From Oscillospiraceae bacterium (GTDB taxonomy: Bacteria; Bacillota; Clostridia; Oscillospirales; Acutalibacteraceae), in NCBI GenBank assembly GCA_015066225.1, contig SVOT01000009.1, positions 1 through 64,000 on the forward strand: 64,000 bases of DNA, read 5' to 3'. A model generated the notes under the pieces. The model ran no database searches. It had not been told where the DNA came from and was given only the letters and a program-made list of their open reading frames with translations. The translations under genes and the position numbers were made by a program. Shown here piece by piece: positions 35,415 through 50,326 of this stretch; position 1 is the stretch's first letter; the number at the start of each line of letters is the position of its first letter.

Positions 35415-36254
35415 TTAGCATATTATCTGTTTTATTTCAAGAATATTGCATAAATTGTCGTGTAGAATTTTTTGCAAATCTTGTTCGCTCAATCCGAGGT
35501 CGAATAAAAATGCTAATTCATCCTCTTGTCTCCACATCGGAAAATCTGTTCCGAAAATTACTCTGTTTGTGCCGTAAAGGTCGATTATTTCTTTTGCTTT
35601 TTCTTTCGAAAGGGCATAGAAGCTGGAGCAGGTGTCAACATAGAAGTTTTTGTATTTGCACAATATCTGAGGCGCCGTATCCCAAATTGACCATCCGCCG
35701 AAATGGGCACCGATTATTGTCAATTCGGGGAACATTTTGAGGATTTTCTCGACTCTGTCGGGGTTGGAATTATCAAATCTTGAATCGCCCGTGTGCAAAA
35801 GCACGGGCAGACGATGCTTGTTGCAGATTTCAAAAATTCTGATTACCTTTGGGTCATCAACCTTGAAATTCTGAATATCCGGATGAAGCTTGACACCCTT
35901 TAATCCAAGATCGATAAGGTGCGCTACATCATCCTCAAGACATTCGCTTTCGGGGTGAAGTGAACCAAAGCCAATGAACCTTTCGGGGAATTGCCTGACC
36001 TCCTCTGCTATAAAGGTGTTTATGCTTTGTGCGTGGTGTGGGGTTGTTGCAACCGAGGTTACAAGGCATTTTTCAACACCGACCGAATCGCATTGGTTTA
36101 TGAGTGCCTTTGCCGTGCCAACAAAACCACAACCGTTAATAACCCCGGATTCGCTTATGTGATAAAATGTATCAATGCTGTCTGTTGCCTTTCGGGCGAT
36201 TTTGTCCGGGAAAATGTGACAATGGGAATCTATTACTTTGAAATTTTTATACAT
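35415..36254 (-). CDS. Amidohydrolase-family (PF04909-like) metal hydrolase
   Basis: 279 residues, a TIM-barrel amidohydrolase of the ACMSD/2-pyrone-dicarboxylate type. The N-terminal metal motif DSHCHIFP is at 9-16, GVKLHPDIQ near 120, LLHTGD near 150, GAHFGGW near 177, and FGTDFPMW near 230 with its metal-binding Asp. The reaction could be decarboxylation or hydrolysis; the substrate is unknown. The start follows GAAGG by eight bases. It lies downstream of the Leu T-box operon but behind a strong hairpin, and no separate promoter is clear. Confidence 0.78.
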   Translation of the reverse strand: MYKNFKVIDSHCHIFPDKIARKATDSIDTFYHISESGVINGCGFVGTAKALINQCDSVGVEKCLVTSVATTPHHAQSINTFIAEEVRQFPERFIGFGSLHPESECLEDDVAHLIDLGLKGVKLHPDIQNFKVDDPKVIRIFEICNKHRLPVLLHTGDSRFDNSNPDRVEKILKMFPELTIIGAHFGGWSIWDTAPQILCKYKNFYVDTCSSFYALSKEKAKEIIDLYGTNRVIFGTDFPMWRQEDELAFLFDLGLSEQDLQKILHDNLCNILEIKQIIC

Positions 36255-36277
36255 AACTGAAACCTTCTTTAAAACAC

Positions 36278-36302
36278 AAAAGTCGGGCATTGCCCGACTT
36301 TT
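36278..36302 (-). terminator. Terminator after the TIM-barrel/ligase fusion gene
   Basis: Twelve-bp arms AAAAGTCGGGCA/TGCCCGACTTTT with a one-base gap (the real loop takes a few of these bases); it separates the fusion gene from the amidohydrolase and may allow partial readthrough. Confidence 0.85.
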
Positions 36303-36313
36303 CGTTATGCTTT

Positions 36314-38785
36314 TTACACGCTGGCGGATTTTTGAGAATTGTATCTGTCGATTGATTCCTCTCGCATTTTGTATTTGAGAATTTTACCTGCAGCGTTCAT
36401 CGGGAATTCGTTTACAAACAAGAAATATTTAGGAACCTTGTGCTTAGCAATAGATGCATATCCGTACTCCTTCATTTCCTTTTCATCGGCTGTTTCGCCC
36501 TTGTGAAGAATAATCCAGGCACAGCATTCCTCACCGTATTGCTCATCGGGAACGCCAACAACCTGAACGTCACGAACCTTGGGATTGGTAAGGTAGAATT
36601 CCTCAATTTCACGTGGGTAGAGGTTTTCACCGCCACGGATAATCATATCCTTGAGTCTGCCGGTAACCTTATAATATCCGTCGGGAGTTCTCATACAGAT
36701 ATCGCCGGAATGGAGCCAGCCCTCGCTGTCTATTGCCTGAGCGGTTGCTTCGGGCATTTTGTAGTAGCCCTTCATAATGTTGAAGCCGCGGGCAACAAAT
36801 TCGCCGCTCTGACCGTCGGGGAGCTCATTGCCTGTTTCGGGGTCAATAATCTTGCATTCAACACCCGGGAAGGCGCTTCCGACTGTTTCAACACGGTGGT
36901 CAAGGTCTTCGTTAACTTCACCCATAGTGCAGCCGGGCGAGGCTTCTGTCTGACCGTAAACCGAAATAATTTCACGCATATTCATTTCAACCGAGGCACG
37001 GCGCATAAGGTCAGGGGGGCAGTTTGCACCTGCCATAATGCCCGTTCTCATATATGAAAAATCGGTTTTTGCAAAATCAGGGTGGCTGAACATCGCAATA
37101 AACATTGTGGGCACACCGTTAAAGCAAGTGATACGCTCATCGTTGACACAAGCAAGCGATGACTTGGGTGAGAAATAGGGGATTGGGTAAAGCGTGCCGC
37201 CGTGAGTCATCATAGAGGTCATAGAAAGCACCATTCCGAAGCAATGGAACATGGGCACCTGTATCATCATACGGTCAGCAGTGGACAAGTCCATTCTGTC
37301 ACCGATTGTTTTACCGTTGTTTATAATGTTGCGGTGTGTGAGCATAACGCCCTTCGGGAAGCCTGTTGTACCCGAAGTGTATTGCATATTACAAACGTCA
37401 TCGGGCTTTACAAGAGATGAGCGTCTGCGTACCTCTTCTCTCGGAATAAGTGCAGAGCGTGAAAGCATCTGCTCCCAGGTAAGGCAACCGTCCATATCAA
37501 AGCCGACGGTTACAACATTGCGAAGGAAGGGGAGATTTTTTGAATACAGAGGTGAGCCGGGCTCAAGTGTTTTTAACTCGGGGCAAAGCTCCTCGATTAT
37601 TTCCTTGTAGTTAATGTCCTTGCAATACTCAATCATAACAAGAGTATGCGTGTCAGACTGTCTGAGCAAGTATTCAATTTCGTGAATTTTATATGCCGTG
37701 TTAACAGTAACAAGAACTGCACCGATTTTTGTTGTTGCCCAGAAGGTGAGAAACCACTGGGGAACGTTGGTTGCCCATATTGCAACATGGTCACCCGCTT
37801 TTACGCCAAGCGAAATCAAGGCAGCGGCACATTCGTCAACATCGCGACGGAATTGCTCATAGGTTCTTGTATAGTCCAAGGTGGGATATTTGAATGCGTA
37901 CTGGTCAGGGTATTTTTCTGCCATTGTGTCAAGCACATCGGAAAAAGTTGCATCAATAATGTCATATTTTTTCCACGCAAAGGTACCTGTTTTATCACGG
38001 TTGTAATACGCACGGTCGTAGCCCTTTTTTTCACGGCCCAAAGAGGAAATGTAGTTTGTGAAGTGTGTAAGAACAATATCAGCATCACTTATTTCTTCAT
38101 TCCACGCGGCACATATAAAGCCTTCGTAATTGAGTGAAGAAAGTGCGCTTAATAATTTCTCAACATCTAAATCGCCTTCGCCGATTAAAACGGTTTTGCC
38201 GTCCTTCATATCACCAAGGCGCACATATTTAATGTATGCACCAAGATTTTTTATTGTGGTTTCAGCGGTTTCACCCGCACCGAAATAGGTCCGTCTTACG
38301 TTCCACGACACACCGATAGCCGCAGAAGCAAAGTGGTTGATAAGACCGATTACGTTTTCTGTTCTTGCGAGGTAACCGACGGTTTCGAATAAAATATTAA
38401 CATCGCCTGCTTCTGCACGCTTGATTGCTGCAGCCATTTTTTCGTCGAGTGTTTCAAAAGGCAATTTGATTTCTGTGCGAACAATAACGTTTTCAATACC
38501 CGATGCTGCAGCCATAGCAACATATTTTTCAATGAGCTCGGCGGTGGTGTTTTCGCTTTCAATGGGCTCCGGCATACGGAGTGCGGAAACGGAGAGGCTT
38601 CTGTTAACAAGCTTTCTTTTTGCGTCGGCAATACGTTCGCGTCTTAATATACTATCGTGATGAGAGCTTCGTTCTTTTATGGCATCGTATATTTCAAAGC
38701 CTTCAAAACCGTAGTCAAAGGCATAACGACAGGTGTCAAGGAATGAGGCCCGACTCACGTTTTTTGTCGAAAATACAATTTTCAT
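36314..38785 (-). CDS. Fusion: xylose-isomerase-like TIM barrel plus acyl-CoA ligase
   Basis: 823 residues. Residues 1-~265 look like a sugar-phosphate isomerase/AP-endonuclease-2 TIM barrel, but most metal positions are changed: one Glu (ILFETVG) remains while the usual D..H pair reads WNVRR and the final Glu reads AAW. Residues ~285-823 are an ANL-superfamily ligase: P-loop YTSGTTGFPKG near 467, YGQTEAS, SGDICMR, GRLKDMIIRGGENLYP, and the C-terminal catalytic Lys in AAGKI. The ligase should adenylate a carboxylate and transfer it to CoA. The start at 38785 follows GAGGAGG. One base separates it from the LeuA-like gene, so the Leu T-box controls it; isovalerate is the predicted acid. Confidence 0.82.
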   Translation of the reverse strand: MKIVFSTKNVSRASFLDTCRYAFDYGFEGFEIYDAIKERSSHHDSILRRERIADAKRKLVNRSLSVSALRMPEPIESENTTAELIEKYVAMAAASGIENVIVRTEIKLPFETLDEKMAAAIKRAEAGDVNILFETVGYLARTENVIGLINHFASAAIGVSWNVRRTYFGAGETAETTIKNLGAYIKYVRLGDMKDGKTVLIGEGDLDVEKLLSALSSLNYEGFICAAWNEEISDADIVLTHFTNYISSLGREKKGYDRAYYNRDKTGTFAWKKYDIIDATFSDVLDTMAEKYPDQYAFKYPTLDYTRTYEQFRRDVDECAAALISLGVKAGDHVAIWATNVPQWFLTFWATTKIGAVLVTVNTAYKIHEIEYLLRQSDTHTLVMIEYCKDINYKEIIEELCPELKTLEPGSPLYSKNLPFLRNVVTVGFDMDGCLTWEQMLSRSALIPREEVRRRSSLVKPDDVCNMQYTSGTTGFPKGVMLTHRNIINNGKTIGDRMDLSTADRMMIQVPMFHCFGMVLSMTSMMTHGGTLYPIPYFSPKSSLACVNDERITCFNGVPTMFIAMFSHPDFAKTDFSYMRTGIMAGANCPPDLMRRASVEMNMREIISVYGQTEASPGCTMGEVNEDLDHRVETVGSAFPGVECKIIDPETGNELPDGQSGEFVARGFNIMKGYYKMPEATAQAIDSEGWLHSGDICMRTPDGYYKVTGRLKDMIIRGGENLYPREIEEFYLTNPKVRDVQVVGVPDEQYGEECCAWIILHKGETADEKEMKEYGYASIAKHKVPKYFLFVNEFPMNAAGKILKYKMREESIDRYNSQKSASV

Positions 38786-38786
38786 G

Positions 38787-40175
38787 TTATGCCTCCTCAA
38801 ATACGATTTTGTTCAATGCATTGATATATGCTCTGATGCTTGCGGCAACAATGTCTGTAGATGTGCCGTTACCGGAATAAAGCTTGCCGTTATTGCGAAG
38901 TCTTACAAGTGCAGAGCCAAGAGCTTCCTTTCCCTCTGTTACGGATTGAACCTGGAAGTCATCAAGCTCGTAGTGGTGGCCTATGCATTGCTCAATTGCG
39001 CGGAAAACGGAATCAATAGGACCGTCGCCGTTACTTACACCGCAAATAATTTCGTCGTTGCATTTCAAGGTGACCTGTGACATGGATGTAGAAACGTTGC
39101 TGCTTGTGGTTGTATATGTTTCAAAGTGGTAGGTGGAGGGAGCCTGCATAGCTGAGCTTGCAATAATAGCTTCGAATTCTTTGTAGCCGACAGCACCCTT
39201 CTTTTCGCATACCTGCTTAATAACCTTGTGCACGTTGCCGATATCGGAATCTGAAAGCTCATAGCCCAAAACAGCAGCAGCCTGAGCAACCTGAACAACT
39301 GTGGAATCTGAATCAATAAGAATCTTTTTGCCTTCACTTATTGACTTGCTGTTTTCATATTCGTCGTGGTTAATGCTTGACAACATATCATCAATGCTTG
39401 TATGGATTTTTGTATTGTTAAGCTTTATTTCTGCGTTAACCTGTTTGCCGCAAGCGTTTATTGCATCGGAAAACTCACCTGTGAGAAGTGCGTTTTTACC
39501 TGCCATTGCACATTTAATGCCGTCGGCACCGCTTTTGATTGCAGAAAAAGCAGATGCAACCGCCATGTTGATGCAATCGGAAACCTGCACGTAAACAGGG
39601 ATGCTTACAGCATCTTTCACCTTTGAAACCATTTCTGCGATATCGTCGGGAGTTGAAACGCCTGCATCGTCGCATATTGTAACCATACTTGCGCCGCAAG
39701 CCTCGGCTTCTTTAACTGCGGCAACAAGGAAATCTTCATCTGCTCTTGTTGCATCGAGTGCGGCAAATTCAACGTCGGGGCACAATGCTTTTGCTTCTTT
39801 GATAAGTGCTGTGATTTTCTCGAGCATTTTTGCCTGCTTTACGTGATAAGTGTATTCCATCTGAATGGTGGATACGGGAAGCTCAATTTGAAGGCGGGGC
39901 TTCTGTGCATCTTTGACACACTCCCATGCAACAGCAACATCCTCGTTGATGAAGCCCACAGGGATTGCCAAAACTGCATTCTGTATATTCTGTGCGATTG
40001 TTTTATAGATGATTTTATCTTCGGAAGGGGATTTAACTGCAGGAATTTCAATTACATCCACACCGATTTTGTCGGCACAGTTTGCGATGGCCGATTTTTC
40101 ACGGAATAGCAAGGAAACAGCTCTGTCCTCTGAAATCTTTTTAAGTGTGATGTCTGAAATAATAATTTTTTTCAT
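38787..40175 (-). CDS. LeuA-like protein with eroded active site and intact regulatory domain
   Basis: 462 residues aligning over full length with 2-isopropylmalate synthase. The hallmark DTTLRDGEQ reads SDITLKKISED, the metal HxH segment (VHTHDDLG in E. coli) reads VQVSDCINM near 195-203, and NGIGERAGN reads AGKNALLTG. From family knowledge these hold the catalytic Arg and divalent-metal ligands, so condensation is unlikely. The C-terminal LeuA dimer/allosteric domain (~345-462) is well kept: NGDGPIDSVFRAI, GKEALGSALVRL, and TDIVAASIRAYINALNKI. The second ATG (40175) is chosen, with AAAGGAT upstream. It is first gene behind a T-box reading Leu, which supports a leucine-related, probably sensory, role. 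Confidence 0.75.
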   Translation of the reverse strand: MKKIIISDITLKKISEDRAVSLLFREKSAIANCADKIGVDVIEIPAVKSPSEDKIIYKTIAQNIQNAVLAIPVGFINEDVAVAWECVKDAQKPRLQIELPVSTIQMEYTYHVKQAKMLEKITALIKEAKALCPDVEFAALDATRADEDFLVAAVKEAEACGASMVTICDDAGVSTPDDIAEMVSKVKDAVSIPVYVQVSDCINMAVASAFSAIKSGADGIKCAMAGKNALLTGEFSDAINACGKQVNAEIKLNNTKIHTSIDDMLSSINHDEYENSKSISEGKKILIDSDSTVVQVAQAAAVLGYELSDSDIGNVHKVIKQVCEKKGAVGYKEFEAIIASSAMQAPSTYHFETYTTTSSNVSTSMSQVTLKCNDEIICGVSNGDGPIDSVFRAIEQCIGHHYELDDFQVQSVTEGKEALGSALVRLRNNGKLYSGNGTSTDIVAASIRAYINALNKIVFEEA

Positions 40176-40223
40176 TTTGCTCATCCTTTCAGCAGATAAA
40201 ATATAATGTAATGTAAAAGACCA

Positions 40224-40507
40224 ATAAAAAAGCCCTGAGATTCGAAAATCTCAGGGACGAATTTTTTTGAAAATCCGCGGTACCACCCCGGTTACTGACA
40301 ATGGTCAGTCACTCATTAGGACTCGTTATTAAGTCTGTAGCCATGGTAACGGGGCTGCCGTAACTCCTTACACGAATTGTCGGTTGGGGAGTTCTGCTCC
40401 GGAACGAGACCGAATTTTTGTAACGCACCGACTCACAGCAACCGTCGGCTCTCTGGAACGTCAAACCAAAAACACGTAATTCCTTCATTGCATTTGAAAA
40501 ATATTGA
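40224..40507 (-). promoter_or_regulatory. T-box leader, putative Leu specifier (CTC)
   Basis: Minus-strand leader of the LeuA-like/ligase operon. Seen: CAGAGAG and a GCCGAC...GTCGGT stem-I hairpin with GGTTGCTGTGAG, putative specifier CTC at 40406-40408 followed by GTTCCGGAG, the T-box core TGGTACCGCGG (complement of 40275-40285), and a terminator CCCTGAGAT...ATCTCAGGG plus T run (40233-40256). Binding of uncharged tRNA(Leu) should favour the antiterminator. The UGGU bulge suits tRNAs with discriminator A, as leucine tRNAs have. Confidence 0.88.
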
Positions 40508-40511
40508 GTGA

Positions 40512-40540
40512 ATGATAACACTCTTTGATTTCTTTGTCAA
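40512..40540 (-). promoter_or_regulatory. Promoter of the Leu T-box operon
   Basis: On the minus strand, TTGACA, 17 bases, TATCAT. Its -35 box is only 39 bases from the -35 box of the divergent Ile T-box promoter. Confidence 0.8.
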
Positions 40541-40579
40541 CACTTTTTTGAAAAAACACAAAAATTTTTAAAAAAACTA

Positions 40580-40608
40580 TTGACAGTGGATTTCTAAAGT
40601 GCTAATAT
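40580..40608 (+). promoter_or_regulatory. Promoter of the Ile T-box gene
   Basis: TTGACA, 17 bases, TAATAT. Transcription should begin near 40615, just before T-box stem I. Confidence 0.82.
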
Positions 40609-40614
40609 CTTTGC

Positions 40615-40900
40615 AATTGAAAATATCACAAATAAAAGCTGTGACGAAGACGGTTGAAAATTACAACTTTCAGAGAGTCGGCGGTTGCTGTGAGCCGATA
40701 GCTTGTGTTTTCAAAACCTATCACTTCTGAGCTGAAGGTCCGAAAGATTCTTTCCTGTAGGCGCCTTCCGAGAATGCTGCGTTAGTGCAACGGGGTTGTT
40801 GGACTCCTGAGTGGCAATTTTATTGCAATTTGAGTGGTACCGCGGATTAATTTTCGTCTCAAAGTAAAACCGAAAGGTTTTATTTTGAGGCGTTTTTTAT
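40615..40900 (+). promoter_or_regulatory. T-box leader, putative Ile specifier (ATC)
   Basis: Seen in order: GTGACGAAGAC at the base of stem I, CAGAGAG, the GTCGGC...GCCGAT hairpin with GGTTGCTGTGA, putative specifier ATC at 40720-40722 followed by ACTTCTGAG, the T-box core TGGTACCGCGG at 40835-40845, and a terminator of 17-base arms around a GAAA loop with T run (40855-40898). The specifier register is shared with the Leu and Val leaders in this window. It precedes the first XRE-cupin-ligase. Confidence 0.88.
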
Positions 40901-40941
40901 TTGTGAGTTTTTGATAATGTTTTATGAAAGAAGGAATCATT

Positions 40942-43215
40942 ATGCAGAACAATTCAGTTACAAACAAGCTTGCAGAGGTCGCAAAGCGTATCGGTGAACT
41001 CCGTGATATTTATGGCTTTTCTGCTGAGGAGATGGCTGAAAAAACCGAACTCACATTGGAGGAATATCTCTCTTTTGAACAAGCAAAAGAGGATTTGCCC
41101 TTCTCTTTTATTCACAAGTGTGCTCTTGCATTTGATGTTGAAATAACAGACCTGCTTGAGGGTCAGAGTGCAAAGCTCACAGCATACAACGTAACACGCA
41201 GGGGAAAGGGTCAGACAACTGCAAATGAAGATGGTATTCTGATTCAGAACCTTGCGCCTAAGTTCAGAAATAAGCTTGCAAACCCCTATTGGGTTAAATA
41301 TGAATACAGAAGCGAGCTTCAGTCTATGCCCATTGAGCTTGCAACTCACTCGGGTCAGGAATTTGACCTTGTTATCAAGGGCTCTCTTAAGGTTCAGATC
41401 GGCGAGCACACAGAAATTCTTCACGAGGGTGACAGCATTTTCTATAAAAGCTCAATTCCTCACGGTATGATTGCCGTTAACGGCGAGGATTGTCTTTTCC
41501 TTGCTATGGTTATGGCTGAGGACGAAGAGGTTGCAGACACAAATATGAACGCTGTCAGCGTTGCCGATACAACAAAGAGAATTCCTCTTATCTGCGACAA
41601 ATTCATCAAAACAACCGAGGACGAGAACGGCGTTTGCACCGGCATAGATTTCGAAAACGAGGATGAATTCAACTTTGCTTTCGACGTTGTTGATGAAATC
41701 GGCAGACAGTATCCCGAAAAGCTTGCTATGCTTCATATTGCAGAGGATATGACTGAGCGCCGCTTTACCTTCAAGGATATTAAAGAGGGCTCATCACAGG
41801 CGGCAAACTACTTCAAATCATTGGGTATCAAAAAGGGCGACAGAGTTCTTCTTGTTCTCAAGCGCAACTATCAGTTCTGGTTGGCAATTCTTGGTCTTCA
41901 CAAGCTTGGTGCTATTGCAATTCCTGCAACAAACCAGCTTGTTACTCACGATTATGAATACCGCTTTAATGCTGCCGGTGTTTCTGCAGTTGTTGTTACT
42001 GCAGACGGTGTAGCAACAGATTATGTTGATGAGGCACAGAAAAATTGCCCGACTCTTAAAACAAAAATCGTTGCAAACGGTAAAAAAGACGGTTGGCATT
42101 GTTTTGATGAAGAATATGCTCTCTTCAGCCGTCGTTTTGTACGTGATGAAGAATCTCCCTGTGGTGATGATCCGATGCTTATGCTCTTTACTTCGGGTAC
42201 AACGGGTTATCCCAAAATTGCTACTCACAGCCACAAATATCCTCTCGGACACTTTATTACAGCAAAGTACTGGCACTGTGTTCAGCGAGACGGTATTCAC
42301 TTTACAATATCCGAGACCGGTTGGGGTAAAGCTCTTTGGGGCAAGCTATACGGTCAGTGGCTTTGCGAGGGTGCTGTTTTTGTTTATGACTTTGATCGCT
42401 TTGATGCATCAAAAATTCTTCCTATGTTTGCAAAGTACAATATCACAACCTTCTGCGCACCCCCCACAATGTACAGAATGCTTATAAAACAGGATATTTC
42501 TCAGTACGACCTTTCATCAATTCAACATGCAACAACAGCAGGTGAAGCTCTTAACCCTGAGGTTTTCAAGCAATTTGAAAAATCAACAGGTCTTCGTATC
42601 CACGAAGGCTTCGGTCAGACAGAAACAACCCTTTCTATCGCTACTCTTAACGGTACGAATATTAAGATCGGTTCAATGGGTAAGCCCACACCGCTTTATG
42701 ATGTTGATATTGTCGATCCCGACGGCAGACCCGTTGCCGATGGTGAAACAGGCGAAATAGTTATCCATACAGATTCAACTGTTCCGTGCGGTCTTTTCCT
42801 TGGCTATTACAATAATGAGGAAGCAACAAATGAGGTTTATCACGACGGGCTTTACCATACCGGTGACACTGCTTGGCGTGACGAGGATGGTTATCTCTGG
42901 TATGTCGGCCGTGTTGATGACGTTATCAAATCATCCGGTTACCGTATCGGGCCTTTCGAAATAGAAAACGTTATCATGGAGCTTCCCTATGTTCTTGAAT
43001 GCGGTGTTTCTGCCGCACCCGATGAGGTAAGAGGTCAGGTTGTTAAAGCAAGCATCGTTCTGACACCCGGCACAGAAGGAACAGAAGAACTCAAGAAAGA
43101 GATTCAGAAATATGTCAAGGAGCATACAGCACCTTACAAGTATCCCAGAATCGTTGTTTTCCGTGACGAACTTCCCAAGACCATTAGCGGAAAAATCATA
43201 AGAAATAAGCTTTGA
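40942..43215 (+). CDS. XRE-cupin-acyl-CoA ligase fusion, Ile T-box controlled
   Basis: 757 residues. An XRE helix-turn-helix is at ~8-65 (AKRIGELRDIYGFSAEEMAE...CALAFDVEITDLL) and a cupin at ~100-190 with THSGQEFDLVIKG, GDSIFYKSSIPHG. An ANL-family ligase follows from ~225: P-loop FTSGTTGYPK near 416, EGFGQTETT, TGDTAWRDEDG, YVGRVDDVIKSSGYRIGP, and catalytic Lys751 in ISGKI. The ligase part resembles short/medium-chain acyl-CoA synthetases. HTH-cupin heads normally belong to transcription factors, so the fusion may sense product or bind DNA. The ATG at 40942 follows AAGGAA by eight bases. Predicted acid: 2-methylbutyrate, from its Ile leader (inference). Confidence 0.85.
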   Translation: MQNNSVTNKLAEVAKRIGELRDIYGFSAEEMAEKTELTLEEYLSFEQAKEDLPFSFIHKCALAFDVEITDLLEGQSAKLTAYNVTRRGKGQTTANEDGILIQNLAPKFRNKLANPYWVKYEYRSELQSMPIELATHSGQEFDLVIKGSLKVQIGEHTEILHEGDSIFYKSSIPHGMIAVNGEDCLFLAMVMAEDEEVADTNMNAVSVADTTKRIPLICDKFIKTTEDENGVCTGIDFENEDEFNFAFDVVDEIGRQYPEKLAMLHIAEDMTERRFTFKDIKEGSSQAANYFKSLGIKKGDRVLLVLKRNYQFWLAILGLHKLGAIAIPATNQLVTHDYEYRFNAAGVSAVVVTADGVATDYVDEAQKNCPTLKTKIVANGKKDGWHCFDEEYALFSRRFVRDEESPCGDDPMLMLFTSGTTGYPKIATHSHKYPLGHFITAKYWHCVQRDGIHFTISETGWGKALWGKLYGQWLCEGAVFVYDFDRFDASKILPMFAKYNITTFCAPPTMYRMLIKQDISQYDLSSIQHATTAGEALNPEVFKQFEKSTGLRIHEGFGQTETTLSIATLNGTNIKIGSMGKPTPLYDVDIVDPDGRPVADGETGEIVIHTDSTVPCGLFLGYYNNEEATNEVYHDGLYHTGDTAWRDEDGYLWYVGRVDDVIKSSGYRIGPFEIENVIMELPYVLECGVSAAPDEVRGQVVKASIVLTPGTEGTEELKKEIQKYVKEHTAPYKYPRIVVFRDELPKTISGKIIRNKL

Positions 43216-43326
43216 TAAATTGCGAATCGGGGCAGTTACTTACACCACCGTGCCTTTGGCTTATAAAAAGCTTTGATTCATTAATTAATTCGTGCTTAGA
43301 ATTTGATATAAATTATGATAAAAAAC

Positions 43327-43355
43327 TTGACATTTACCTTATATTATGGTATCTT
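43327..43355 (+). promoter_or_regulatory. Promoter of the Val T-box operon
   Basis: TTGACA, 17 bases, TATCTT, ~110 bases after the first ligase gene. I see no clear terminator between that gene and this promoter (43216-43326). Confidence 0.78.
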
Positions 43356-43361
43356 TGAGGA

Positions 43362-43634
43362 AATTGAATAAAAAGGCGTTGAAGAAAAGGGCGCAATTAT
43401 TTCACCTTGCAGAGAAGTGGCGGTTGGTGCAAGCCACAGGTTGAGAGATTGATGTTTGTAGTTTCTGAGCCGGGAGGAAGAACAGCTTTCGCTTAGTAGA
43501 ACCTCTCCGTGATTGCTGCGTAAAGGCATAGAGGTTGTTTGACTTCGAGAGAGGCAGTTTATACTGCAATTTGAGTGGTACCGCGGGTATATTTTTACTC
43601 GTCTCAAAGAATATCTTTGGGACGGGTTTTTTAT
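43362..43634 (+). promoter_or_regulatory. T-box leader, putative Val specifier (GTA)
   Basis: Seen: GGCGTTGAAGA at the stem I base pairing with GAGCC, CAGAGA, a GTGGC...GCCAC hairpin with GGTTGGTGCAA, putative specifier GTA at 43458-43460 followed by GTTTCTGAG, the T-box core TGGTACCGCGG at 43576-43586, and a GTCTCAAAGA/TCTTTGGGAC terminator (43601-43623) followed by a T run. It heads the operon ligase-NTPase-VOR-IlvE. Confidence 0.88.
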
Positions 43635-43663
43635 TGTGTCCCTACAAAAACGGAGGATAGATT

Positions 43664-45958
43664 ATGGACAAAATCACCGGTCTTGATTTTAAAATCAAGG
43701 AGATGGCTGCCCGTATTCGGGAATTGCGTGAAATTGAGGGCTACACCACAGACGAGATGGCGTTGAAAACGGGTGTTGCCGAAAGTGAATACATTGCTTG
43801 CGAAAATGGTGAAAGCGACCTTAACTTTGCGTTCATTTACCGTTGTGCGCTTGCATTCAATGTTGACGTTTCGAGTATTATAGAGGGTAGCACACCCAAG
43901 CTCACCAACTACGTTTTCACAAAAGCAGGTAAAGGTCAGAAGATTGAAAAAGCTCACGGAATGACTTATTTCAACCTTGCTTCAAAATTCAAAAATAAAA
44001 TTGCCGAGCCGCTTTTTGTTGAGGCTACATACAGTGAAGAAAATCAGAATAAGGATATTGAGCTCACTTCTCACGACGGTCAGGAGCTTGATATTGTTGT
44101 TGAAGGTAAGTTAAAGGTTCAGGTGGGCGAGCATTCCGAGATTCTCGGCCCCGGTGACAGTATCTATTACGATTCTCTTACACCTCACGGTATGATTGCC
44201 GTTGACGGTAAGGATTGCACGTTCTACGCTATTGTTCTTAATCCGTCGGGTGAGCCTATCCCTGAGCTTCAGCACGTGAAGACTGAGGAATATAAAGAAC
44301 CCGTAAAGGTTAAAGAGGATAAGAAAGAAAGAATTTATCACAAGTTTATTGACGTTGAGCGCAACGAAAAAGGCACACCCACATCAATCAAATTTAAAAA
44401 TACAGAAAATTTCAACTTTGCATATGACCTTATCGATGCTCTTGCAGACAGAGAGCCCGATAAATTGGCAATGCTTCATATTGCAAGAGATAAAACTGAA
44501 AGAAGATTTACATTTAAGGATATGAAGCGTGGCTCTGCTCAGGCGGCGAACTACTTCAAATCCTTGGGCATCAAAAAGGGCGACAGAGTTATGCTTATAC
44601 TCAAGCGCCACTATCAGTATTGGTTTGCGATGCTCGGACTTAATAAATTAGGCGCTATCGGCATCCCTGCACCCAACCAGCTGCAGGAGCACGACCTTGA
44701 ATATCGCTTCCGGGCTGCAGGAATCAAAGCGATTATTTGTACAACAGACGGCGATGTAGCAAATCAGGTTGATATGGCGGCGGCAAAATGCCCCGACCTT
44801 AAAATTAAAATTGCTGTTGGCGAAGATCGCGACGGTTGGAGAAACTACGACGAAGAAAGCAAGCTGTTCAGCTCTCATTACGAAAGGGGCGAAAATGCTC
44901 CCGGCGGCGATGATTTGATGCTTATGTTCTTCACATCGGGCACAACAGGTTATCCCAAAATTGCCGCACACAGCTACACTTATGCTCTCGGTCATTTCCA
45001 CACAGCGAAATATTGGCACAACGTTGACCCCGACGGTCTTCATTTCACAATATCCGATACAGGCTGGGCAAAGTCTATGTGGGGCAAATTCTATGGACAA
45101 TGGCTCTGCGAAGCGGCTCTTTTTGTTTACGACTTTGATCGCTTTGATGCAGCAGACATTCTTCCCATGTTTGCAAAACACAATATTACAACGTTCTGTG
45201 CACCGCCCACAATGCTCAGAATGATGATAAAACAAGATATTTCAAAATACGATTTCTCCTCCGTTAAGCATATGACAACAGCGGGCGAGGCTCTTAACCC
45301 CGAGGTTTACCGCCAGTTTGAAAAGGCAACGGGTCTTCAGATTCTTGAGGGCTTTGGTCAGACTGAAAGCACAATGATTATCGGTAATATGACAGGCGCG
45401 CCCCACAAAATCGGTTCAATGGGTAAGCCTGCTCCGATTTATGACGTTTGCCTTGTTGATGCAGACGGTAACAAGGTTAACGTTGGTGAAAACGGTGAAA
45501 TTGTTGTTAATGTAAAAGACGGTGCTCCCTGCGGTCTCTTCAAGGGCTACTATAATGATGAAGAAAAAACCAAAGAGGTTTGGCACGATGGCTACTATCA
45601 TACAGGTGATGTTGCCTGGATGGACGAAGACGGCTTCTATTGGTATGTTGGTCGCGTGGATGACGTTATTAAATCTTCAGGCTACCGTATCGGGCCTTTC
45701 GAAATTGAAAGTGTTATTATGGAGCTTCCCTATGTTCTTGAGTGCGGTGTTTCAGCCGCTCCCGACGAGGTGAGGGGACAGGTTGTTAAAGCAAGCATTG
45801 TTCTTGTTCCCGGCACAGAGGGTACTGAAGAGCTCAAAAAAGAAATCCAGCAGTACGTTAAGAAGAAAACCGCTCCTTATAAATACCCCCGTATCGTTGT
45901 ATTCCGTGATGAATTGCCAAAAACAACCAGTGGAAAGATACAGAGGAATAAATTATAA
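43664..45958 (+). CDS. XRE-cupin-acyl-CoA ligase fusion, Val T-box controlled
   Basis: 764 residues, a close paralogue of the preceding fusion with identical domain order: XRE ~10-70, cupin ~105-195 (TSHDGQELDIVVEG, GDSIYYDSLTPHG), ligase ~230-764. Motifs: FTSGTTGYPK near 424, EGFGQTEST, TGDVAWMDEDG, YVGRVDDVIKSSGYRIGP and catalytic Lys758 in TSGKI. Similarity is highest in the last ~120 residues. The ATG follows CGGAGG. It is the first gene of a probable operon with the VOR subunits and IlvE. From its Val leader the predicted acid is isobutyrate (inference). The cupin keeps His/Glu/His candidates for metal binding. Confidence 0.85.
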   Translation: MDKITGLDFKIKEMAARIRELREIEGYTTDEMALKTGVAESEYIACENGESDLNFAFIYRCALAFNVDVSSIIEGSTPKLTNYVFTKAGKGQKIEKAHGMTYFNLASKFKNKIAEPLFVEATYSEENQNKDIELTSHDGQELDIVVEGKLKVQVGEHSEILGPGDSIYYDSLTPHGMIAVDGKDCTFYAIVLNPSGEPIPELQHVKTEEYKEPVKVKEDKKERIYHKFIDVERNEKGTPTSIKFKNTENFNFAYDLIDALADREPDKLAMLHIARDKTERRFTFKDMKRGSAQAANYFKSLGIKKGDRVMLILKRHYQYWFAMLGLNKLGAIGIPAPNQLQEHDLEYRFRAAGIKAIICTTDGDVANQVDMAAAKCPDLKIKIAVGEDRDGWRNYDEESKLFSSHYERGENAPGGDDLMLMFFTSGTTGYPKIAAHSYTYALGHFHTAKYWHNVDPDGLHFTISDTGWAKSMWGKFYGQWLCEAALFVYDFDRFDAADILPMFAKHNITTFCAPPTMLRMMIKQDISKYDFSSVKHMTTAGEALNPEVYRQFEKATGLQILEGFGQTESTMIIGNMTGAPHKIGSMGKPAPIYDVCLVDADGNKVNVGENGEIVVNVKDGAPCGLFKGYYNDEEKTKEVWHDGYYHTGDVAWMDEDGFYWYVGRVDDVIKSSGYRIGPFEIESVIMELPYVLECGVSAAPDEVRGQVVKASIVLVPGTEGTEELKKEIQQYVKKKTAPYKYPRIVVFRDELPKTTSGKIQRNKL

Positions 45959-45981
45959 TCTATAAAAAGAAGGTGATGAAG

Positions 45982-46644
45982 ATGCAAAGTAAACGAATGA
46001 CTCTTTTTGCGGGGCACTACGGCAGCGGCAAAACAAATATTGCCGTTAACTACGCTTTGTATCTTAAAAGCCTTGGCGAAAACGTCGTCATTGCTGACCT
46101 TGATATCGTTAACCCCTATTTCAGAACAAGAGACAGTCTTGAGGATTTGGACAAAGCGGGGATTAAATTGATTTCCTCTGAGTTCGCAAACTCAAATGTG
46201 GATTTACCTGCTTTACCTCAGGATGTATATTCTCTTCTTGACAAACGTGAAGAAAAGGCGATAATGGATATTGGCGGTGATGACCGCGGCGCTTATGCCC
46301 TTGGTAGGTATGCAGACGCTATTAAAGAAGAAAACGACTATGAAATGCTTTTTGTTTTCAATAAATATCGTCCTTTAACACCCGATGCAGAATCTGCTTT
46401 TGAAATAATGCAGGAAATTGAAGCGGCGTGTAAGGTTAAATTCACTGCAATAGTCAATAACTCCAACCTTGGTGAGAGCACCACGGCAGAGGATGTTTTA
46501 AATTCGGTTGACAGTGCCGAAAAATTGTCTGAATTAACAGGCTTGCCTGTTAAAATGACAACTGTCACAGAAAAATTAGTTAATAATCTCAACGGAAAAA
46601 TTTCAAATCTGTTTCCGCTGACTTTACAAAAAAAGATAATTTAG
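45982..46644 (+). CDS. ParA/MinD/CobB-like P-loop NTPase in the VOR operon
   Basis: 220 residues. Walker A GHYGSGKTN is at about 11-19, followed by VVIADLDIVNPYFRTRD, where a switch-I-like Asp sits, and AIMDIGGDDRG as Walker B. The deviant-Walker lysine of true ParA proteins is not present; the fold is nearer to dethiobiotin synthetase/CobQ-type NTPases. Cytosolic, function unknown; placed before the ferredoxin subunit it could help assemble or load the oxidoreductase (inference). The ATG at 45982 is eight bases after AGAAGG; an earlier in-frame GTG/ATG lies too close. Confidence 0.7.
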   Translation: MQSKRMTLFAGHYGSGKTNIAVNYALYLKSLGENVVIADLDIVNPYFRTRDSLEDLDKAGIKLISSEFANSNVDLPALPQDVYSLLDKREEKAIMDIGGDDRGAYALGRYADAIKEENDYEMLFVFNKYRPLTPDAESAFEIMQEIEAACKVKFTAIVNNSNLGESTTAEDVLNSVDSAEKLSELTGLPVKMTTVTEKLVNNLNGKISNLFPLTLQKKII

Positions 46645-46655
46645 GAGGCAGAAAA

Positions 46656-46862
46656 ATGGCAAAAGTAACATTCGCAGAAAATGTTTGCAAGGGTTGCGGT
46701 TTGTGCGTAACTGCTTGTCCCAAGAAAATTGTGGAACTTGATTCTGCAAAGCTCAACGCAAAAGGTCATCATCCGGCACATTGCATCGATGAAAGCAAGT
46801 GTATCGGTTGCGCATTTTGTGCAACAATGTGCCCCGACTGCGCTATAACTGTTGAAAGGTAA
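46656..46862 (+). CDS. vorD: 2-oxoacid:ferredoxin oxidoreductase delta subunit (2x4Fe-4S ferredoxin)
   Basis: 68 residues with two cluster motifs, CKGCGLCVTACP (~11-22) and CIGCAFCATMCP (~49-60), and the 'KGHHPAHCIDESKC' linker typical of the VOR/KOR delta subunit. It passes electrons between the TPP subunit and ferredoxin. RBS TTTAGGAGG precedes the ATG; it lies 12 bases after the NTPase gene and 10 before the alpha subunit. Confidence 0.92.
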   Translation: MAKVTFAENVCKGCGLCVTACPKKIVELDSAKLNAKGHHPAHCIDESKCIGCAFCATMCPDCAITVER

Positions 46863-46872
46863 GGTGAAATAA

Positions 46873-47937
46873 ATGGGTGAGAAAGTTTTAATGAAAGGTA
46901 ATGAGGCTATCGCCGAAGCTGCAATCAGAGCAGGTTGTATGCATTATTTCGGTTACCCCATTACTCCCCAGACAGAAATTGCCGCATATATGGCAAAAAG
47001 AATGCCCAAGGTGGGTGGCGTATTCCTTCAGGCTGAAAGTGAAATCGCCGCAATCAATATGGTTCTCGGCGTTGCCGCGACAGGCAAACGTGTTATGACC
47101 TCTTCTTCAAGCCCCGGAGTTTCTCTCAAGAGTGAGGGTATTTCTTACATAGCAGGCTCAGATGTTCCTGCACTTATCGTTAACGTTCAGCGTGGTGGCC
47201 CCGGTCTCGGTGGTATCCAGCCCTCTCAGTCCGATTATTTCCAGGCTGTTAAAGGCGGTAGCCACGGCGACTTCAAGAAAATTGTTCTTGCGCCCGCTTC
47301 TGTTCAGGAGATGGCAGACCTTACAAGCACTGCGTTTGACCTCGCAGATAAATACAGAATGCCCGCTATGATTCTTGCGGACGGTACTCTCGGTCAGATG
47401 ATGGAGCCTGTTGAGCTTCCCGAAACAGCTCCCAACAGCTTCGAAAAGCCCTGGGCACTTACAGGCACAAAAGGGGAGAGAAAGCATAATATTGTCAACT
47501 CCCTCTACCTCAAGCCCGAAGAGCTCGAAAAAACTAACTTCGAGCGTTATGCAAGATATAAAACAGTTGAAGAGAATGAGGTTCTCTTTGAAGAATATCT
47601 TATGGATGATGCAGATATCTGCGTTGTTTCTTTTGGTATCACAGCCCGTGTTGCTAAAAATGCTATTGTTGAAGCACGTGCAAAGGGTATCAAGGTCGGT
47701 ATGATTCGTCCCATAACTCTCTGGCCCTTCCCCGATAAGGTTCTCAGAGCAGCGGCTGACAAATGCAAAGCATTCCTCACAGTTGAAATGAATATGGGTC
47801 AGATGATTGAAGATGTTAAGCTTGCAACAGAATGCAAGAAGCCCGTATATCTTTGCAACCGCACAGGCGGTATGATTCCCTCACCTGAAGAGGTACTTGC
47901 AAAGATTGAAGAAATCAATGAAGGAGGCGACAAATAA
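46873..47937 (+). CDS. vorB: 2-oxoacid:ferredoxin oxidoreductase alpha subunit (VorB type)
   Basis: 354 residues. N-terminal pyrimidine-binding domain: [28 protein letters not shown], then [37 protein letters not shown]. The C-terminal part is a transketolase-C-like domain from ~230. Together with VorA/C/D it interconverts a 2-oxoacid plus CoA with acyl-CoA, CO2 and reduced ferredoxin. The family typed as 3-methyl-2-oxobutanoate (branched-chain) oxidoreductase shares this layout; KOR-like alternatives are not excluded by sequence alone. The last base is shared with vorA. Confidence 0.9.
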
Positions 47938-48689
47938 TGGTAGTATTTGAAAAACCCAAAACGTTAACAGATGCACCGCTTCATTACTGTCCCGGTTGCA
48001 CTCACGGTATTATTCACCGACTTGTTGCCGAGGTTATTGATGAACTCGGTATCGACGGCAGAACTATCGGTGTTGCTCCCGTTGGTTGCTCTGTTATGGC
48101 TTATGACTATTTTACATGTGATTTCATTCAGGCACCTCACGGCAGAGCTCCTGCTGTTGCAACGGGTGTAAAAAGAGCAGACCCCGAAAACAACGTTGTT
48201 TTCACATATCAGGGCGACGGTGACCTTGCCGCTATCGGTACTGCTGAAACTGTTCATGCCGCTGCAAGACGTGAAAACATCACAGTTATTTTCGTAAACA
48301 ACGCAATCTACGGTATGACAGGCGGTCAGATGGCTCCCACAACTCTTCCCGGTCAGGTTACCCAGACCTCTCCCTACGGCAGAGACGTTAACACTGTTGG
48401 TTACCCCGTTAAGGTTTGCGAGCTTCTTCAGAACGTTGACGGTGCGGCATATCTCGAAAGAGTTTCCGTAAACAATCCTGCAAACGTTAAAAAGGCAAAA
48501 GCCGCTATCAAAAAAGCATTCCAGAATCAGCTTGACGGCAAGGGCTTCTCTCTTGTTGAGGTTGTTTCAACTTGCCCCACAAACTGGGGTATGACACCCG
48601 AAAAAGCACTTAAATGGCTTGAGGAAAATATGCTTCCTTATTACCCCTTGGGTGTTTATAAAGATATCTACGCAGAGGAGGCAAAATAA
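47937..48689 (+). CDS. vorA: 2-oxoacid:ferredoxin oxidoreductase beta subunit (TPP-binding, VorA type)
   Basis: 250 residues. CPGCTHG near 18-24, the TPP motif GDGDLAAIG...[11 protein letters not shown] near 95-130, and [12 protein letters not shown] before it. It binds thiamine diphosphate and forms the active site with VorB. TAATG coupling at both ends (shared base with vorB stop and with vorC start) shows tight stoichiometric expression. Confidence 0.92.
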
Positions 48690-49225
48690 TGAGTAAAGCA
48701 TGTAACATTCTTTTTGCCGGTTTCGGCGGTCAGGGTATTCTTTTTGCAGGCAAATTCGTTGCATATAAAGGTCTTCTTGAAAACAAACAGGTTTCATGGC
48801 TTCCTTCATACGGTCCCGAAATGCGTGGCGGCACAGCTAACTGCAGCGTTATCGTCAGCGACGAGCCCATCGGCTCTCCCATTGTCGGCAAACCCGACGT
48901 TCTTGTTGCAATGAACCTTCCTTCTCTTGACAAATACGAAAATGAAGTTGTTTCAGGCGGTAAAATTTTCGTTGATTCAACTCTTATTTCACGCAAGGTT
49001 GAGAGAACAGACGTTGATGTTTTCTATATCCCCGCAACACAGATTGCTAACGAAAAAGGCATCAGCACACTTGCAAATATGATTATAACCGGTAAGCTTC
49101 TTAAAGAAGTTCCTCAGATTGGCTTTGACGGTATCGATGCACCTCTCGCAAAGGTTGTTTCTGCCCGTCACCAGGACCTTCTTGAGGTTAACAAAACAGC
49201 ACTCAAGCTCGGTTACGACTATTAA
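48689..49225 (+). CDS. vorC: 2-oxoacid:ferredoxin oxidoreductase gamma subunit (VorC type)
   Basis: 178 residues. [17 protein letters not shown] at ~10-26 and [22 protein letters not shown] near 45-65 are signatures of the gamma/CoA-interacting domain. Full length for a separate gamma subunit. The operon order D-B-A-C, ending with an aminotransferase gene 24 bases later, ties the complex to amino-acid interconversion. Confidence 0.92.
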
Positions 49226-49249
49226 TTTTCAGAAAAGAGGTTATTTTCA

Positions 49250-50326
49250 ATGAGCTACAATTTCAAAATTGAAAAAACAACAGCACCTAAGGCTAAACCT
49301 CAGGATGAAAGCAAACTCGGTTTCGGTAAACTTTTTACTGACCATATGTTTATTATGAACTATGACGAAGGTCAGGGCTGGCATGACGGCAGAGTTGTTC
49401 CCTACGGTCCTCTTCAGCTTGACCCCTCTTCAATGGTTTTCCACTATGCACAGGAGCTTTTCGAGGGTCTTAAAGCATACAGAACTGCTGACGGCAGCAT
49501 TCAGCTTTTCCGTCCTCAGAAAAACATTGAAAGAATGAACAACACCTGCGACCGTCTTTGTGTTCCCCGCCTTGATCCCGATATGGTTCTTGAGGCTATC
49601 AAAACTGTTGTTGATGTTGATAAGGATTGGGTTCCCCACAACGACGGAACATCACTTTACATCCGCCCCTTCATCATTGCTACAGACGCTTTTCTTGGTG
49701 TTCACGCTTCCCACAGCTACATTTTCGCAATTATCCTTTCACCCGTTGGCTCTTACTATGCAAACGGTATGGATCCTGTTAAGATTTACATTGAACGTGA
49801 ATACGTTCGCTGTGTAAAAGGCGGCACAGGCATGGCTAAAGCCGGCGGTAACTATGCTGCATCTCTCATCGGTCAGGAAAAGGCAGATAAAATGGGCTAT
49901 GCTCAGGTTCTTTGGCTCGATGGTGTTGAGAGAAAATATATCGACGAAGTTGGCGCAATGAACGTTTTCTTTGTTATTGACGGTACGGTTATCACACCCT
50001 CTCTTGAAGACGGTAACATTCTTCCCGGTGTCACAAGAGCATCCTGCGTTGAGGTTCTTAAGGCAAACGGATACAAGGTTGAAGAGAGAAAAATATCTAT
50101 TGATGAGGTTAAAGAGGCTCATAAGAACGGCACACTTACCGAATCCTTCGGTACAGGTACAGCCGCAGTTATTTCACCCGTTGGTGAATATATCGACGGT
50201 GACGAGCATCTTATTATCAACGATTCAAAAATCGGTCCTGTTGCTCAGTTCCTTTATGATGAGCTCACAGGAATTCAGTGGGGTAAGAAGGAAGATAAGC
50301 TCGGCTGGATTGTAAAAGTTAACTAA
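49250..50326 (+). CDS. ilvE: Branched-chain amino-acid aminotransferase
   Basis: 358 residues, PLP fold type IV, long BCAT form. Seen: YGPLQLDPSSMVFHYAQELFEGLKAYR near the substrate pocket, KGGTGMAKAGGNYAAS, the PLP-binding Lys in GVERKYIDEVGAMNVFF, GNILPGVTRASC, and SFGTGTAAVISPVG. Transfers an amino group between glutamate and the 2-oxoacids of Val, Leu and Ile. As the last gene behind the Val T-box and VOR it completes the path from acyl-CoA to amino acid. RBS AAGAGG precedes the ATG and a terminator follows. Confidence 0.95.
   Translation: MSYNFKIEKTTAPKAKPQDESKLGFGKLFTDHMFIMNYDEGQGWHDGRVVPYGPLQLDPSSMVFHYAQELFEGLKAYRTADGSIQLFRPQKNIERMNNTCDRLCVPRLDPDMVLEAIKTVVDVDKDWVPHNDGTSLYIRPFIIATDAFLGVHASHSYIFAIILSPVGSYYANGMDPVKIYIEREYVRCVKGGTGMAKAGGNYAASLIGQEKADKMGYAQVLWLDGVERKYIDEVGAMNVFFVIDGTVITPSLEDGNILPGVTRASCVEVLKANGYKVEERKISIDEVKEAHKNGTLTESFGTGTAAVISPVGEYIDGDEHLIINDSKIGPVAQFLYDELTGIQWGKKEDKLGWIVKVN

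Follow-up and report, generated by a model that had tools for sequence, protein, structure and literature searches.

The locus considered here raises the question of why a bacterium should control three acyl-CoA ligases with RNA switches for three different amino acids. It lies in a draft genome of an Oscillospiraceae bacterium (GCA_015066225.1, contig SVOT01000009.1), of which positions 1 to 64,000, referred to as the window, were analysed. Two divergent operons make up the region, as delineated by a scan with the T-box model RF00230, by Pfam and NCBIfam profile searches and from the reading frames of the window. Three ligases, all of the AMP-forming acyl-CoA type (LIG1, LIG2 and LIG3), are encoded together with subunits of 2-oxoisovalerate:ferredoxin oxidoreductase (VOR) and the branched-chain aminotransferase IlvE. 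The best explanation, to which we assign a probability of roughly 0.83, is that the locus forms an anabolic module for the salvage of branched short-chain acids (isoacids), in which the ligases, VOR and IlvE would act in succession and replace a missing de novo pathway for branched-chain amino acids.

In such a module, the ligases would form the CoA thioesters of 2-methylbutyrate (LIG2), isobutyrate (LIG3) and isovalerate (LIG1). A single VOR serving all three branches would convert the acyl-CoAs to 2-oxo acids by ferredoxin-driven reductive carboxylation, and IlvE would aminate these to Ile, Val and Leu. Uncharged tRNA would switch each ligase on through its T-box (Ile for LIG2, Val for LIG3, Leu for LIG1), and pLeuA, an inactive homologue of 2-isopropylmalate synthase encoded ahead of LIG1, would carry the leucine feedback control of the lost pathway over to this ligase. 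The acid specificities, the direction of the reactions, the binding of leucine by pLeuA and its contact with LIG1 are what we infer from the sequences.

The covariance search with RF00230 recovered three leaders at full model length, comprising Stem I, specifier loop, AG-bulge and the T-box antiterminator sequence, with E-values of at most 5.6e-19. Leader 1 lies on the minus strand (40250..40497, 105.5 bits, E 6.6e-23), leaders 2 (40632..40864, 105.0 bits, E 8.8e-23) and 3 (43370..43609, 90.2 bits, E 5.6e-19) on the plus strand, the last falling slightly short of the RF00230 gathering score of 93. In the covariance-model alignment, the specifiers read CUC followed by G (Leu, 40408-40406), AUC followed by A (Ile, 40720-40722) and GUA followed by G (Val, 43458-43460). 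Each is succeeded by a 4-nt helix strand, which pairs with the 5' side of Stem I, then by one base and GAG. The alignment agrees with the first-pass annotation, which had proposed the three leaders and had read CTC, ATC and GTA in a register of nine bases ending in GAG, one for each branched-chain amino acid. Its statement that the leaders head three ligases is correct for LIG2 and LIG3 and had to be revised for leader 1, whose first gene is the LeuA homologue (38787-40184) with the ligase adjoining.

Consensus scans predicted that every leader is preceded by a separate TG-extended promoter-like site and that a terminator-like hairpin with a T-run overlaps its 3' end. For leader 1, these are TTGACA-17-TATCAT at 40540-40512 and a hairpin at 40256-40233, for leader 2 the positions 40580-40608 and 40855-40892, and for leader 3 the positions 43327-43355 and 43597-43627. 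As part of the same explanation and with the same confidence, each leader would be a T-box transcription attenuator turned on by its own uncharged tRNA. The host possesses tRNA-Leu(GAG) and tRNA-Val(UAC), exact matches to the CUC and GUA specifiers. A tRNA-Ile(GAU) was absent among the 43 host tRNA matches, all of which are covered by 18 of 30 fetched loci and 13 stretches, and we suspect that an rRNA operon is lost from the draft. Nine T-boxes are present in the host genome, and the six outside the locus precede pheS, thrS, trpB, alaS, ileS and aspS, genes that were named by reading their translations by eye.

Relatives were searched with profile and sequence queries in a set of 118 related genomes. 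At the thresholds used, the ligase type of LIG2 and LIG3, with helix-turn-helix (HTH) and cupin parts, matched in 84 genomes and pLeuA in 59, of which 34 score at least 200 bits and the remainder resemble true LeuA or further HMGL proteins. A scan of a species-genome collection yielded at least 567 stretches encoding relatives of pLeuA, not all of them necessarily pLeuA. The 80 loci examined are by title mostly drafts of Clostridia and Oscillospiraceae, many from ruminant hindgut, and include four Spirochaetota drafts. Gene order was the same in the fetched loci wherever the stretch was long enough, with some rearrangement. LIG1 with its TIM barrel (TIM-LIG1) directly follows pLeuA in 79 of the 80 loci, and in the remaining one (L176) the TIM part follows before the contig ends.

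Specifiers were called with a rule that is blind to which codon is expected. Before 97 distinct pLeuA genes it gave 72 CTC, 4 CTG, 21 no calls and no other triplet, thus Leu in 76 of 97, and before 94 HTH-cupin ligases 49 ATC, 30 GTA, 1 GTC, 1 GAA and 13 no calls, thus 49 Ile, 31 Val and one discordant. Several of the no-calls are genes located at contig starts. Both groups are a non-random sample, drawn from 314 records (286 after dropping identical first 300 residues) of 53 loci including the window, of which 48 yielded a record, and of the 80 loci, with some genomes present twice. On the six other T-boxes of the host, the rule gave the codon that fits the gene in four cases (pheS, thrS, trpB and ileS), misread that of alaS and left aspS uncalled; an earlier version had read GTT in L082 (later GTA) and had left several loci uncalled. 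The rule is also borne out by covariance-model alignments, read from the printed sequences, of 20 T-boxes from 13 loci of relatives. In the window and its relatives, the calls are thus branched-chain codons in all but one discordant case (GAA in L107), as had been anticipated for the window. A chance reading of the specifiers was rejected, since all 76 calls before the 97 pLeuA genes are Leu.

The minus-strand operon runs from leader 1 through pLeuA (38787..40184) and LIG1 (36314..38800) to an amidohydrolase gene, and the start of LIG1 (38800) abuts or overlaps the end of pLeuA (38787). The earlier reading had overlooked that the gene heading this operon encodes a dead synthase, with its active site lost and its LeuA_dimer domain intact (PF00682 and PF08502). 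pLeuA fails to reach the scores of the 2-isopropylmalate synthase families (253 bits versus 532 for NF002086, 229.8 versus 598.7 for TIGR00973). In a Pfam search, the HMGL and LeuA_dimer (PF08502) domains were kept in 36 of 36 members. Among 95 distinct members, none keeps the RD catalytic pair or the HxH metal pair, and all have lost by deletion the HESGIH segment and, within the GxGER loop, its IGER part; partial remnants are one His in L084 and the Asp in L207. We take the RD pair, the HxH metal site, the GxGER loop and the HESGIHQ segment to have their roles in the catalysis of 2-isopropylmalate synthase. True LeuA and pLeuA have the fold and the LeuA_dimer domain in common and differ not only in the active site but also in an inverted pattern of conservation, as pLeuA members share on average 49% pairwise identity over the HMGL part and 69% over the LeuA_dimer part, whereas seven true LeuA of related genomes show 70% and 49%, respectively. 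Selection therefore seems to have shifted from catalysis to the regulatory domain, in which the GDGPxD loop is retained. Most likely, pLeuA binds leucine and tunes LIG1 as a leucine sensor, as suggested by the pattern of domain conservation and the constant gene order. A random pseudogene was rejected because the frames stay open in relatives with 34 to 89% identity to the pLeuA of the window and because the regulatory domain is better conserved than that of true LeuA.

The alternative that survives best, although we consider it improbable, is that pLeuA remains catalytic but has taken up a novel activity, such as another acyl transfer or lyase reaction, that is required for leucine synthesis. 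Frames that are intact over wide distances and an HMGL fold that is recognisable in all 36 members would fit such an enzyme. The loss of both pairs and of the two segments in all 95 members would not, nor would the weaker conservation of the catalytic domain relative to the regulatory domain, opposite to true LeuA, and TIM-LIG1 is also found under Leu T-boxes in other genomes that lack pLeuA.

The best NCBIfam models of pLeuA are all 2-isopropylmalate synthases, with scores under half the curated cut-offs, which is a likely source of mis-annotation. Automatic annotation may be expected to label pLeuA as LeuA and to imply a leucine pathway that does not exist.

LIG1 is a fusion of an AP_endonuc_2-like TIM barrel (PF01261) to an acyl-CoA ligase (PF00501 and PF13193) and is proposed to be an isovalerate-CoA ligase. 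Its best-scoring acyl-CoA ligase family differs from that of LIG2 and LIG3 (NF009233, 665.8 bits, short of the cut-off of 832), and the N-terminal TIM barrel replaces the HTH-cupin part. The barrel (residues 1-265) is less conserved than the ligase, with a mean column conservation of 0.64 versus 0.88 in 74 sequences. A PDB sequence search with the TIM domain gave no match, and the barrel is possibly another non-catalytic sensor. TIM matches in frames longer than 700 amino acids were found in 19 further genomes without pLeuA, and in 8 of 12 such loci fetched a T-box precedes the fusion. Six of these eight were scanned with the covariance model, and all six read CUC by our own registration of the printed alignments; the codon-blind rule gave CTC in L255, L258, L261 and L262, CTG in L265, and failed or gave another triplet in L256, L259 and L264. 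The link between LIG1 and Leu is thus independent of pLeuA. Six of the pLeuA loci (L193, L196, L197, L198, L199 and L207) carry a Leu T-box, pLeuA-LIG1, IlvE, a P-loop NTPase and VOR in one array, with the contig of L193 ending past VorD, and the leader was confirmed by the covariance model in L193, L196, L197 and L207. Such single arrays tie LIG1 directly to VOR. In the same six loci, a distance of 302 to 404 bases separates pLeuA from the CTC T-box upstream that entered the count, and a second T-box lies between them in all four that were scanned (L193, L196, L197 and L207).

These tandem T-boxes differ in their preservation. In L196, the T-box at 4475-4691 reads CUC and the one at 4793-5002 reads AUC; in L193, L197 and L207, the second T-box has lost much of Stem I.

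The plus-strand operon begins with leader 2 and LIG2 (40924..43215), followed by leader 3, LIG3 (43664..45958), the P-loop NTPase, VorD, VorB, VorA, VorC and IlvE, which ends at 50326. LIG2 and LIG3, proposed as 2-methylbutyrate-CoA and isobutyrate-CoA ligases from their nearest relatives and their T-box specifiers, both consist of HTH, cupin and ligase domains in this order. Their best NCBIfam model is MbcS (NF047394), yet with 443.5 and 441.4 bits they reach about half of its cut-off of 850. The closest solved structure to LIG3 in a PDB sequence search is Macs of Methanosarcina (3etc, 635 bits). Macs prefers 2-methylbutyrate according to the part of PMC10455477 consulted, and MbcS of Staphylococcus aureus is described in passages of PMC10026030 as selective for 2-methylbutyrate and isobutyrate and poor with isovalerate, which fits a separate ligase family for Leu. 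In the libraries searched, these two enzymes, which prefer small branched acids, are the nearest ligase domains; LIG2 and LIG3 differ from them in the HTH-cupin fusion, the T-box control and the VOR and IlvE partners. The path from isoacid through acyl-CoA and VOR to transamination, put forward in the first-pass annotation, is supported by the conserved specifiers, by the failure to find IlvC, IlvD or an intact LeuA in the host draft, by the preferences of these characterised relatives and by the Leu T-box-pLeuA-LIG1-IlvE-VOR arrays.

A tree of 90 of the 94 HTH-cupin ligases was computed by a quick method, with rows shorter than 680 amino acids or with identical starts dropped and L107 labelled Ile by hand. 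It contains a clade of 33 Ile-switched and 2 uncalled ligases (SH-aLRT 99) and a sister clade of 31 Val-switched and 3 uncalled ones (SH-aLRT 100); the 15 other called ligases outside both clades are all Ile. The simplest reading would be a single origin of the Val switch, in which a ligase under Ile control was duplicated. Comparison of the columns of the two clades (31 Val and 33 Ile rows) identified 13 positions that are diagnostic at 85% or more, of which 12 lie at residues 11-223 and none of these inside the matched cupin core (132-190). Only one diagnostic position falls in the ligase domain; it is residue 469 in LIG3 and belongs to a GW[G/A]K motif. This putative acyl-pocket position is Gly in 47 of 48 Ile-switched ligases (Gly468 in LIG2) and Ala in all 31 Val-switched ones (Ala469 in LIG3). 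HMMER alignments place it opposite a Gly in Methanosarcina Macs and, in an acetyl-CoA synthetase, opposite the Val within GWVT, and by this motif it may be equated with V310 of Salmonella acetyl-CoA synthetase. V310, T311, V386 and W414 of that enzyme are reported, in the passages of PMC8511477 compared, to lie within 4 Å of the acetyl group and to change specificity. The correlation suggests that Ala, with its extra methyl group, would adapt the pocket of the Val ligase to an acid that is one carbon smaller. In the 1.1 Mb genome G043, the single HTH-cupin-ligase match (L086) has an Ile T-box together with the Val-type Ala.

Following the role of MbcS in Staphylococcus, the ligases might mainly supply branched-chain fatty acids for membranes, with VOR and IlvE being incidental. 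That MbcS is the best model for LIG2 and LIG3 and acts in membrane lipid synthesis, according to PMC10026030, argues for this possibility. The amino-acid-specific T-boxes and the operons shared with VOR and IlvE across relatives make it quite unlikely as the main role, and amino-acid and membrane-lipid fates may occur together.

The gene content behind the third T-box is as claimed initially, with a complete set of four adjacent VOR subunits and IlvE, all on the plus strand. VorB (46873..47937) scores 560.7 bits with NF005507 (cut-off 399). The thiamine pyrophosphate-binding subunit VorA (47937..48689, PF02775, with PorB/KorB-type NCBIfam matches below cut-off) and the gamma subunit VorC (48689..49225, PF01558) pass cut-offs in Pfam but none in NCBIfam. 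VorD (46656..46862) is a small ferredoxin-like subunit of 68 amino acids with two CxxCxxC..C motifs, which was recognised as a reading frame and whose homologues adjoin VorB in relatives. IlvE (49250..50326) exceeds the cut-offs of TIGR01123 (422.3 versus 250) and NF009897 (499.6 versus 307).

In the host draft, which is 95.45% complete in 18 contigs, no match was found to IlvC (KARI) or IlvD, each of which was found in 14 of 14 control genomes. The only two HMGL-type matches of the draft are pLeuA and one other protein, and no intact LeuA was found. Activation of isoacids followed by VOR and IlvE is therefore the likely route to branched-chain amino acids. Strong matches in the 118 related genomes were counted by eye, giving IlvC in 52 genomes at 188 bits or more (KARI_N matches 94 of 118 at E 1e-3) and IlvD in 51 genomes at about 429 bits or more plus a partial one in G019 (PF00920 matches 55, of which the pLeuA-bearing G025, G031 and G112 were dropped). 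By these counts, 29 of the 34 pLeuA genomes lack both IlvC and IlvD and five have both, and IlvC is present in 47 of the 84 genomes without pLeuA (Fisher p 3.5e-5, with kinship ignored and drafts of all completeness included). In the genus of the host, 18 of 22 genomes lack both genes, all being drafts, of which those other than the host are 76 to 98% complete.

Under a catabolic reading, the module would work backwards, with IlvE, VOR and the ligases fermenting branched-chain amino acids to isoacids. The same enzymes would be needed, and VOR and IlvE are reversible and found in amino-acid fermenters. AMP-forming ligases are poor for energy conservation, though, and three starvation-type tRNA leaders with conserved specifiers, together with the failure to find IlvC, IlvD or an intact LeuA in the host draft, make fermentation very unlikely and support the anabolic direction that had been proposed on the basis of the T-boxes. 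That the de novo genes merely fell into the missing 5% of a draft in 18 contigs is hardly credible when three markers (IlvC, IlvD and intact LeuA) are missing together in the host and when, by our count, neither IlvC nor IlvD occurs in 18 of the 22 draft genomes of its genus. The T-box logic would stand regardless.

Several observations weigh against the salvage module as described. Five genomes (G006, G008, G009, G019 and G085) have pLeuA as well as IlvC and IlvD, and the module is thus not strictly a replacement. The pLeuA genomes G025, G031 and G112 have PF00920 matches of 346 to 358 bits that were not counted as IlvD; these proteins may be other dehydratases or divergent IlvD. The absence in the host rests on a draft that is 95% complete. 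LIG2 and LIG3 score far under the MbcS cut-off, and the Ile-switched ligase L086_39 carries Ala in the pocket position. In the window, VOR and IlvE are under the Val T-box, and for starvation for Leu alone to raise them, read-through or else a basal level of expression would have to be supposed. Among the specifiers, the automatic call in L107 is the discordant GAA, for which the earlier rule version gave ATC, and in L196 the T-box nearer to pLeuA is the one reading AUC, the count having used the farther CTC. Finally, 4 of the 12 pLeuA-free TIM-LIG1 loci (L254, L257, L260 and L263) have no T-box by motif scan.

A wider idea, which we put forward tentatively and would rate at somewhat below even odds, is that amino acids control every isoacid ligase at two levels, through a tRNA-sensing RNA switch on the transcript and through a dedicated protein sensor that accompanies the enzyme. 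The sensor would be the pseudoenzyme pLeuA for Leu, exerting feedback on a ligase to which it is unrelated, and possibly the HTH-cupin part for Ile and Val; the lost feedback would have moved to salvage, and the Val branch would have emerged from the Ile branch by duplication, a change of specifier and one pocket residue. The HTH-cupin part may be the Ile/Val sensor, since 12 of the 13 clade-specific residues are located within residues 1-223, albeit outside the matched cupin core. A PDB search with this part returned only one weak match, an HTH protein.

It has been known for sixty years that rumen bacteria require isoacids and carboxylate them to branched-chain amino acids (Allison 1962, 1966; Allison and Peel 1971; Robinson and Allison; as discussed in PMC7356843). 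The chemistry proposed here is the same, from isovalerate to Leu, 2-methylbutyrate to Ile and isobutyrate to Val; what differs is one ligase and one T-box per acid, as genes and regulation are outside the account compared. T-box leaders on branched-chain amino acid biosynthesis genes have been reported in Wels 2008 (PMC2494555), with leuA of Geobacter and Pelobacter as examples. The same kind of RNA precedes a LeuA homologue in our locus, but this homologue has lost its active site, and its operon serves to activate acids rather than for de novo synthesis. Neither a link between T-boxes and acyl-CoA ligases nor an inactive isopropylmalate synthase as a sensor appeared in titles or abstract starts among the PubMed Central matches listed. 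Supplements aside, the main text of Wels 2008 does not contain 'acyl-CoA', and PMC3766115 (2013) contains neither 'acyl-CoA' nor 'branched-chain'. The genetic logic and the pseudoenzyme thus appear undescribed in the library searched, in line with what the first-pass annotation had believed of the pairing of one ligase with one T-box, and the biochemistry, the RNA family and the enzyme families are already known.

The rumen isoacid requirements are tied to no gene set in the literature passages compared, and the module offers candidate genes. Its regulatory logic names the substrate of each ligase, and it might serve as a genomic marker for users of their neighbours' branched acids. Specifier codons would allow prediction of acyl-CoA ligase substrates, which is rarely possible from sequence alone, and pLeuA would be a clear test case of a feedback sensor that outlives its pathway.

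Among the neighbouring genes, the minus-strand operon ends with an Amidohydrolase_2 gene (35415..36290, minus strand, PF04909), which is a frequent neighbour of LIG1 in relatives. The P-loop NTPase beside VOR (45973..46644, plus strand) has only weak family matches, of the CbiA/ParA type in Pfam, yet accompanies the VOR genes across relatives. Outside the Clostridia, an HTH-cupin ligase in a Sphaerochaetaceae draft from horse faeces is preceded by an Ile T-box (L175:9131-9385, 68.7 bits, below the gathering score). In the Spirochaetales drafts L176, L182 and L183, pLeuA is followed by TIM or TIM-LIG1, and the T-box scan gave no match. The spirochaete occurrences could be due either to horizontal transfer or to mis-binning. 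Gut-1 RNA repeats were found near T-box-controlled genes at L009:1976-2050, L009:2069-2148 and L092:331-407, of which only the first passes the gathering score.

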